From Chloroflexota bacterium (GTDB lineage: Bacteria; Chloroflexota; Dehalococcoidia; Lucifugimonadales; UBA3495): 64,000 bases of DNA. Both the position numbers and the translations under genes were made by a program. The DNA lies in contig JAPPCX010000006.1 of assembly GCA_028875655.1 (NCBI GenBank), positions 1-64,000 of the forward strand. The letters are read 5' to 3'. Positions 40,558 through 44,241 of this stretch are shown here, piece by piece. Within the stretch, counting starts at the first letter, position 1. Each line of letters opens with the position of its first letter. Below the pieces are notes generated by a model. The model made no database searches. It was not told the DNA's origin and saw only the letters and a list, made by a program, of their open reading frames with translations.

Positions 40558-40600
40558 CCTGTGGTAACATCCCCGACGGCACACCAACCATTCCCGCACC

Positions 40601-40753
40601 TCACACCAACCATCCCGACGGCACACCAACCATCCCGACGGCACACCAACCATCCCGACGGCACACCAACCATCCCGACGGCACACCAACCATCCCGACG
40701 GCACACCAACCATCCCGACGGCACACCAACCATCCCGACGGCACACCAACCAT
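40601..40753. repeat. Tandem repeat, 20-bp unit
   Basis: The unit GCACACCAACCATCCCGACG occurs six times perfectly from 40621 to 40740, with a variant copy before (40601-40620) and a partial after. A further partial unit lies at 40572-40592. There are no spacers, so it is a minisatellite, not a CRISPR array. It lies in the gap between the Tag-like and DUF1802 genes. Confidence 0.92.
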
Positions 40754-40773
40754 TCCCGCACCCTCACACCGTC

Positions 40774-41450: not shown

Positions 41451-41500
41451 CCTTATCCCCTCCCTTCCCCTTGGCCGGCTCCCTCGAAATCGCGGCTGTA

Positions 41501-41755
41501 ATGGCGGTCTCCGAACCGCCGCTTTACGATTTCTTCTTCGACCTCGTGGTTGACCCCGACTGCGACAGTTTGCTGCCCGGCTGCTGTTCGTGTCCCGATG
41601 ACGGCCTCTTTCGATATCACCGCAGCGAGCTTGACGCGCAGGCTCACCAATGGGCCAGCGACGAAAACCTGCCCTGGCCCGACCGCGCTACCCTCCTCCT
41701 CCAGCTCGACAACCTACCCTGGCACAACGACGAAATCATCTTCTACTGGGGCTAA
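41501..41755 (+). CDS. Small hypothetical protein, paralogue of next gene
   Basis: About 84 residues from the ATG at 41501; an in-frame TTG at 41471 would add ten. It shows a motif order shared with the following gene: PPLYDFFFDLV, a Cys-containing middle (LPGCCSCPDD), then LFRYHRSELDAQAHQWAS and NLPWHNDEIIFYWG. No known family. The pair lies directly upstream of the AIPR gene. Confidence 0.6.
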   Translation: MAVSEPPLYDFFFDLVVDPDCDSLLPGCCSCPDDGLFRYHRSELDAQAHQWASDENLPWPDRATLLLQLDNLPWHNDEIIFYWG

Positions 41756-41850
41756 TAAAGACCGCAACAAAATGATGACACCGGGCCGTTGACGCCCGCA
41801 ATCCGGGTCCGCTAAATCATAGGCCATCTTGATTTGCCGAGGTGAGGGCT

Positions 41851-42168
41851 ATGGCGATGGACGTTTGGGCGGTCAAAACCGAGTACTCGCACTTGAAACG
41901 GCCAGCCCCGCCCATATACGATTTCCTTTACGACCTGATGCTGAATCCCTGCACGGGGCAAGGGGATGACCCTTGGGACAACGATACATGGGGTGGTTCC
42001 TGGGGCAACAACGGGCTGTACGAATTCAGCCGGACCGGTCTGCGTCGGCGGGCGCTCAATTGGGCAAACGCTCACAATCTGAGCCAAGCAGAGAAAGCCA
42101 AACTGCGCAGGTGGATTCGGAGCCTACCTTGGAACGACGAGCACATCACGCTGCACTTGGGGAACTGA
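41851..42168 (+). CDS. Small hypothetical protein, paralogue of previous gene
   Basis: About 105 residues. It shares PPIYDFLYDL, YEFSRTGLRRRALNWA and SLPWNDEHITLHLG with the preceding protein. The middle is Gly/Trp/Asp-rich (DNDTWGGSWGN) and differs. The ATG at 41851 follows GAGGTGA. It ends one base before the AIPR start, so they are translationally linked. Confidence 0.65.
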   Translation: MAMDVWAVKTEYSHLKRPAPPIYDFLYDLMLNPCTGQGDDPWDNDTWGGSWGNNGLYEFSRTGLRRRALNWANAHNLSQAEKAKLRRWIRSLPWNDEHITLHLGN

Positions 42169-42169
42169 A

Positions 42170-43993
42170 ATGACTAGCCGACGGCAAACAGCCCGAGATC
42201 GCTACGACCACATCCTGCCCTTCATCGAGGAGGCTGCTGAGGAATACTACGGCGGCAATCTTGACCGGGGGTTTCGTCATTGGTCATTCGCAACGTATTT
42301 CCTGGAGGGCCACGACGTTCAAGGGAACGACATCGTTGAGGCTACCGTTATCGACGGCTCTGATGACTTTGAAGTCGACGGCTATTTCATACCTGAATCC
42401 GATGACGATTCCGTGGTGCATCTATTCCAAAGCAAGCGCCGGGAGCCTGGAACGACAATGGGGCCGCGAGAACTGGCGCCATTTCTAAACGCTCCCAATC
42501 GCTTATTGAATGCCAATGAAGTTGCTGCTTGTCGCAACGACGAGACGAAAGCGCTCCATGACGAACTGATCAAGCGGCTATCGTCCCGAGACCGCCCATG
42601 CTCCATAAATTTGGTTTGGGTAACCAGCGGCACGTTAAGCGATGCAGCACGTCGCAACGCCGAGACCAACCAGTCGCGAAAACTGACTGCTGAGATAAAC
42701 GGCAATCCAATAGAGATTGACGTGACTTTGGAGTGCCTGGATTTAGCCGACCTGCATGAACGTCACACAAATCATCAAAGTAGCGACGACGCCACCATTC
42801 CATGCGATTTTACGTTCCACCTTGAGCCTGGAACGTATCATGAGACAGGCAAAGGTACTGACTATCGCACTCTATCTATGACCGTGCCCGTCAGTCAGAT
42901 CATCGACGTGTTCGCTAGGCACAGCTACAGGCTCTTCCGCTTGAATCCGCGTGGGCCGTTGGGCAACAAAGTCAATAACGAAATCAAACGCACCTTGAAT
43001 GATCAAACGGAACGACGCCGGTTCCACTTGCTCAACAACGGCATCACAGCGATTTGCGATTCATATCGTCCGGTTGACGACCAACTGGTGGTACAAAACT
43101 TCCAAATCATCAACGGCTGCCAAACTACCGTCACGATATGGAATGTAAGAGCGGTCATACGACAAGATCCCAGTGTCCTGGTAACCGTGAAATTGACGGA
43201 ATGCCCTGAGCATTTCGCTCAGGCAATCGCAAGAACTACCAATAGCCAAACTGCTCTCCGGGCCGAGGACTTCACTTCCAACGATGCCGTTCAAATCCGG
43301 CTGCAGAGAGAGTTCTCAGATATGCGGCCCCCGTGGTTCTACCAAATCAAACGTGGTGAGTGGGACAAAATGATTGGCGGCACGTCAGCGAAAGAACCTT
43401 ACCGGGAAGCCGGAAGAGAGTACCGAAAACTCACCAGCAAGGAAGTTGCTCAGGCGGTCGTGTCGTTCGCGGGATTTCCGGGGGAGGCAAAGGACAATAT
43501 CCGGAGCTTCCTCAACAAGGCCAGAATTGCTGTCATAGCGCGTGAAGCCGATTTCAGCTACGAAACGATCTATACTGACAACGTTGACGCGGCACAATTA
43601 TTGTTGCCGGCGGTGATACAGCGCAGAGTTTGGAAACAGGTTACACTCGATAAAGGAAACGAGCCATGGCTGGAGTATGCTCGCTTTCACATCGTGTGGC
43701 TCATTGCCGACATCTTACGGGAACACTACTCTATCGAGAGCAGATTGTTCCCAGCTCATCGAGCAGCCGTAGTATCCGACCAAATCGATGACTGGTTTGC
43801 GCCGATTTACGGGGTAGCGCTGGCGGCAATCAGGAACGCTTTACAGGAATCCGAGCGACGAGAAGAATTCACTGGCTACCGTGAGTTTTTCCGTACCCCG
43901 AACAACTACCGCATGATCGAATCCAATCTACACGGAGCCTTACAACTAGCCCGCAATTTCGGCGACCCGTTTTCCAATCTGCCACCACCATGA
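42170..43993 (+). CDS. AIPR-family protein (abortive phage infection), with nuclease-like N-terminus
   Basis: 607 residues. The AIPR core includes LFRLNPRGPLGNKVNNEIKRTL, FHLLNNGITAICDSY and VQNFQIINGCQTT, then LRAEDFTSNDAVQIRLQREF. The first 110 residues carry D70 and Q87-x-K89 (HLFQSKR), a D...QxK pattern like PD-(D/E)xK nucleases. AIPR proteins are linked to abortive infection defence. Codon use is visibly less GC-biased than its neighbours. It overlaps the next small gene by 4 bp. Confidence 0.85.
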   Translation: MTSRRQTARDRYDHILPFIEEAAEEYYGGNLDRGFRHWSFATYFLEGHDVQGNDIVEATVIDGSDDFEVDGYFIPESDDDSVVHLFQSKRREPGTTMGPRELAPFLNAPNRLLNANEVAACRNDETKALHDELIKRLSSRDRPCSINLVWVTSGTLSDAARRNAETNQSRKLTAEINGNPIEIDVTLECLDLADLHERHTNHQSSDDATIPCDFTFHLEPGTYHETGKGTDYRTLSMTVPVSQIIDVFARHSYRLFRLNPRGPLGNKVNNEIKRTLNDQTERRRFHLLNNGITAICDSYRPVDDQLVVQNFQIINGCQTTVTIWNVRAVIRQDPSVLVTVKLTECPEHFAQAIARTTNSQTALRAEDFTSNDAVQIRLQREFSDMRPPWFYQIKRGEWDKMIGGTSAKEPYREAGREYRKLTSKEVAQAVVSFAGFPGEAKDNIRSFLNKARIAVIAREADFSYETIYTDNVDAAQLLLPAVIQRRVWKQVTLDKGNEPWLEYARFHIVWLIADILREHYSIESRLFPAHRAAVVSDQIDDWFAPIYGVALAAIRNALQESERREEFTGYREFFRTPNNYRMIESNLHGALQLARNFGDPFSNLPPP

Positions 43994-44241
43994 CCACCAT
44001 CACCCAACGCCCCCTGTCGCCGGACGCCATCGCAGGCCTCAGTTCCATCGCCGAAGCGTGCGGCGTGCTGCGCGCCTGGGGATACCCCGACCTCGCCGAC
44101 CGCCTAGCCTACCTGGCCTCCGATGAAGACTTGGACGAAGGCGACAAGCCGTACGCACCGTTTGCCGGCTCCACCCCAGAGAACAACACCTCTCCCACTG
44201 GCTCGCGCATTTTCGCACTTCCGACCGCCAAACGCAGGTGA
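43990..44241 (+). CDS. Small protein coupled to the AIPR gene
   Basis: 83 residues; ATGA overlap with the AIPR stop. The first half is helical (LSSIAEACGVLRAWGYPDLADRLAYLASDEDLDEGD) and resembles short regulatory proteins of TA-like loci, though no family is certain. The last 30 residues are Pro/Thr/Ser-rich and look like a frayed or truncated end. It could be an antitoxin-like partner or a remnant. Confidence 0.5.
   Translation: MTTITQRPLSPDAIAGLSSIAEACGVLRAWGYPDLADRLAYLASDEDLDEGDKPYAPFAGSTPENNTSPTGSRIFALPTAKRR

Follow-up and report, generated by a model that had tools for sequence, protein, structure and literature searches.

The acquisition of a nuclease is dangerous to its host, and how such genes arrive safely is understood mainly for restriction-modification (R-M) systems that carry dedicated controllers. 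A review covers the control of R-M genes, both by controller (C) proteins and through promoter-site methylation (PMC3874152), and earlier comparative work found that AbiU1/AIPR genes frequently adjoin R-M genes (PMC3506569). Here we describe a small protein family, named S, that accompanies both types of system. S genes resemble those of C proteins such as C.EcoO109I and C.Csp231I in being small, in usually preceding nuclease genes, in travelling with defence cassettes and in having a promoter with repeated short boxes that form a predicted operator. They differ from C proteins in that S has no match to an HTH family (24 members searched), is mostly acidic and is not confined to R-M genes, occurring also with AIPR, Mrr, GmrSD, EVE and GHKL genes.

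The locus under study (41471-44241) lies in the window, by which we mean the whole 64,000-nucleotide stretch of DNA that was analysed, and contains two S genes (S1 and S2), an AIPR gene and a gene remnant, flanked by a DUF1802 gene and by an aldo/keto-reductase-like (AKR) gene, the latter named by eye. The likely starts of S1 (TTG 41471) and S2 (ATG 41851) were reset by family comparison. The features are as follows.

41471..41755, + strand: S1, an S-family paralogue with a TTG start that matches the S profile
41789..41818: predicted S2 promoter, with TTGACG as -35, GGTCC at 41806-41810 and TAAATC as -10
41851..42168, + strand: S2, an S-family protein of 105 aa with an ATG start, predicted first gene of the operon
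42170..43993, + strand: AIPR (AbiU-like) nuclease-like protein of 607 aa, with D70 and QSK87-89
43990..44241, + strand: deletion scar, the first 54 codons of a 146-aa gene and then a piece of a 152-aa gene

S1 begins 21 nt behind the DUF1802 gene, and a gap of 1 nt separates S2 from the AIPR gene, with S2 leading this closely spaced pair behind an S-type promoter. Several details of the original prediction held up, namely the ATGA overlap between the AIPR gene and an 83-aa ORF and the lower GC bias of the stretch (G+C of 0.51-0.52 across the AIPR gene versus about 0.61 in the surroundings). Its description of the cassette as bordered by repeats fared poorly. A 20-nt unit (CACACCAACCATCCCGACGG) is repeated about eight times, almost perfectly, in an intergenic region 5' of the cassette (about 40590-40760) that precedes the neighbouring DUF1802 gene; a search of the window for a repeat pair on both sides of the cassette found none.

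The prediction of an AIPR nuclease-like gene with a D...QxK N-terminus was borne out by a full-length match to PF10592 (142.3 bits against a cut-off of 25; E 3.5e-41) and by the PADLOC AbiU model (E 1.1e-37). By motif alignment, D70 and Q87-S-K89 are kept in the S-linked relatives except L048, which has QSM (L numbers denote loci). The protein also shares the AIPR domain with MzaE of the MZA system, but the match to the MzaE NCBIfam equivalog is weak and partial (37.2 bits, under the cut-off of 1050), and MZA partners were not seen at the locus. A sequence search among solved structures returned no relatives of AIPR at a meaningful E-value. The window is thus supported as containing an AbiU-like AIPR protein, and its locus is a defence hotspot, the same site being empty in relatives. 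The protein may act by abortive infection, as originally suggested, with growth arrest or death of the infected cell, or by DNA restriction. Unlike the window protein, most AIPR/AbiU proteins of the order are encoded without an adjacent S gene: we counted 43 AIPR genes in 37 genomes, with eight of the genes beside S.

The two small genes are indeed paralogues, with 33% identity and an E-value of 7e-7 in a within-genome search, and S2 is 44% identical to the S protein of L005, a Dehalococcoidia MAG that is the closest relative found. A first profile built from S1, S2 and the L005 protein had matches in 35 of the 250 genomes examined from the window's order; with an enlarged profile the number rose to 42 at E 0.01, of which about 36 were strong. 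Among 400 genomes sampled across the phylum, the profile matched only the window's own genome, and no relatives were found in phage collections, plasmid collections or one viral-contig scan. S1 orthologues occur in L035, L037, L038 and L040. Typical members begin with MGLDIG and end with LPW...LHF.W. The libraries searched hold no name for the family, single members giving weak matches only; a sequence search of solved structures gave no relatives at a meaningful E-value, and the literature, covered in part, yielded no report of such a small partner. Judged by these comparisons, S is a previously unnamed protein family. Because dN/dS is low both for S1 (0.14-0.45) and between the S2-type genes of relatives (0.08-0.13), the S genes are under purifying selection and are taken to be translated. 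Fold models were of low confidence, and fold searches (Foldseek, VIA-align) gave nothing above Z 5, a result that excludes no fold. At L061 (3862-4509), an internal deletion has fused the N-terminus of S in frame to the C-terminus of AIPR in one 215-aa ORF.

S genes adjoin seven unrelated kinds of defence gene. The partner is AIPR in the window, L005, L035, L046, L048, L058, L060 and L063, with an AIPR remnant in L061, and a methylase/EcoO109I endonuclease pair in ten loci (L036, L038, L039, L041, L044, L050, L052, L053, L054 and L195). The others are a TdeIII R-M pair (L042, L051), Mrr_N (L049, L062), an EVE or EVE-like gene (L043; also L055 and L059, assigned solely by their similarity to L043), GmrSD-HNH (L056) and a GHKL ATPase (L057). 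R-M genes lie beside S in about 12 of 36 S loci. Adjacency of S with AIPR was observed eight times against 0.11 expected under a generous chance model, and with EcoO109I ten times against 0.008, the EcoO109I endonuclease gene being present in 21 genomes. When partner labels were placed on the S tree, whose internal support is modest, they required 14 changes compared with 13.4 in shuffles, and partner type does not appear to follow the tree. L035 and L036 come from the same genus, share their flanking genes and carry S proteins that are 79% identical, with AIPR in the first and an R-M pair in the second. S does co-occur with AIPR in other genomes, but it adjoins only 8 of 43 AIPR genes and most S genes have other partners, so an obligate partnership with AIPR was rejected. 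What survives of the proposed new small components is a new small family tied to defence nucleases, not dedicated parts of an AIPR system. At L192 (44-2805), AIPR and EcoO109I-type endonuclease genes are convergent with overlapping 3' ends; neither a methylase nor an S gene was detected in the 4.5 kb read there.

Where an S gene has a promoter of its own, this contains a sigma-70-like element (TTGACA-type -35, TA...T -10) with GGTCCG directly before the -10 and often GGTCC directly after it. GGTCC was present in the 80 nt preceding 22 of 27 such S genes and 11 of 187 control genes (p 2e-17), and in 8% of random 80-nt windows. Across 247 genomes, the long form of the motif matches exactly at 19 sites, of which 11 precede S genes and one precedes an S-less TdeIII pair; the sites not before S are at chance level, since a backwards control pattern gives about 31. 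The promoter of S2 is conserved before S2-type genes in L005, L035 and L036 and partly in L039, and in the window it has a single GGTCC without the full tandem. S1-type genes have no GGTCC motif upstream. At L129 (700-880), the promoter of an Eco29kI-type R-M cassette located in the same hotspot resembles the S2 promoter of the genus, with GGTTC replacing GGTCC.

EcoO109I, TdeIII and Eco47II recognise GGNCC-type sites. It might therefore be that the methylase of the cassette reads GGTCC, with S either a bystander or an effector that is on at unmethylated GGNCC. Control of R-M genes by promoter methylation is already known (PMC3874152), and the motif persists at two R-M pairs that have no S2-type gene: the TdeIII pair of L150, which lacks S and has the motif before its methylase, and the pair of L038, which has S1 only and a shorter form. 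However, six of seven S-less EcoO109I-type methylase-endonuclease pairs have no GGTCC, and a close EcoO109I-type methylase is absent from 14 of the 15 genomes in which S has no adjoining R-M genes, so that methylase specificity alone is insufficient to account for the motif. S genes beside AIPR, Mrr, GmrSD, GHKL and EVE genes keep the boxes as well. We consider this explanation very unlikely, and a methylation switch as the sole cause of the boxes is weakened by the S-less pairs that mostly lack them. The motif mostly follows S, not the type of nuclease.

Our preferred reading, to which we assign a probability of about 0.42, is that S2 and its own promoter make up a control unit that is portable and indifferent to the type of the exchangeable defence nuclease placed behind it. 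The promoter would transcribe S2 and then AIPR as a single operon; S2 would control that promoter via the GGTCC boxes next to the -10 and keep expression at a safe level for whichever nuclease fills the slot, and AIPR is the predicted effector against invading DNA. What the sequences themselves establish is the family, the exchange of partners, the layout of the operon and a motif in the promoter that goes with S. We infer that S acts on its own promoter, because motifs with essentially one target per genome are usually read by a product of their own cassette and because S is the sole constant gene of the cassettes; the sign of the control and any anti-phage activity are likewise part of what we propose. 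S1, which is read with DUF1802, is perhaps a leftover or a second dose. We regard as doubtful the broader proposal of a universal socket, in which the small regulator and its operator-bearing promoter would stay in place while unrelated restriction and abortive-infection nucleases swap, giving one control logic across the order. If true, a single family and promoter type would offer a general answer for unrelated nucleases, and S could serve as a marker for finding unknown defence nucleases in Chloroflexota.

Several observations count against S as a controller. The proteins are mostly acidic (median pI 4.3, median net charge -11), which is unusual for a DNA-binding regulator; the HTH search was negative, and the models give weak winged-helix rows only among others. 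S lies downstream of the nuclease gene in about five loci and on the opposite strand in about six. The two R-M pairs with a motif and no S2-type gene, the single GGTCC in the window and the many AIPR genes without S point the same way.

The main mechanistic rival to promoter control is a brake at the protein level, in which S would bind the adjoining nuclease, directly or as a DNA mimic, and hold it inactive until infection in the manner of an immunity protein or antitoxin. S is small, mostly strongly acidic and devoid of conserved catalytic residues, and it is often made, by prediction, just ahead of the nuclease on the same mRNA, all of which would suit such a role. Many of the partners (EcoO109I, TdeIII, Mrr and the AIPR N-terminus) probably also have a common PD-(D/E)XK core. 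Yet one family would have to bind freely exchanged partners of unrelated fold (HNH, GHKL ATPase, EVE) as well, the R-M pairs are already protected by their methylase and the common promoter motif would be left unexplained. S2 of the window is itself near neutral (pI 7.9), which also weakens general DNA mimicry by S. No antitoxin or immunity family was matched by sequence, and fold searches stayed below Z 5. Overall we judge a brake unlikely.

The setting of the cassettes raises the further question of whether S has an unrelated role and merely resides where defence genes insert. Both main sites, DUF1802-AKR and GlyRS-SbcD, are hotspots whose flanks are adjacent, with the site empty, in many relatives, and S1 and a few other S genes (L037, L040, L064) have no nuclease. 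DUF1802-AKR also takes Eco29kI and Eco47II R-M genes without S (by Pfam), which makes a passenger a real rival at this site; counting these, the association of S with defence genes there gives p 0.09, and the case for a control unit is therefore carried by adjacency across the order, the exchange of partners and the promoter. At GlyRS-SbcD, by contrast, S and defence genes are gained and lost jointly (13/1 versus 2/10), a strong association that is indicative only, as S-positive loci in the hotspot tables were selected by S. S also lies beside nucleases at further sites (L041, L046, L050-L052, L054 and L060), and the operon spacing is tight. A passenger role for S is in our view quite improbable. 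At L133, an S fragment lies in front of a decayed AIPR gene.

In addition to S1 and S2, the original prediction treated the 83-aa ORF as a small coupled part of the system. L005, whose AIPR is 73% identical to that of the window, has a 146-aa gene and a 152-aa gene at this position. The first 54 codons of the 83-aa ORF match the 146-aa gene, after which the sequence continues within the 152-aa gene, in a different reading frame according to a phase count. By this comparison the ORF is a deletion scar, the stump of the 146-aa gene, and not a component of the system, and its ATGA overlap with AIPR is inherited. We rejected it as a new component on finding the 146-aa gene intact in L005, L035 and L036. 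There the pair is complete, with two copies in L036, and it stands behind AIPR or R-M genes alike. A small clan-AA aspartic protease-like gene (PF13650; 44592-45011) adjoins the cassette in the window and has no match in L005.

The 146-aa and 152-aa genes gave no match to a Pfam family. They form an overlapping, conserved and unnamed pair (L005:7824-8713, L036:8210-9956, L128:8846-9891 and L130:9114-10003), which in L128 occurs without a known nuclease, and the 152-aa protein has weak relatives on Rhizobium plasmids.
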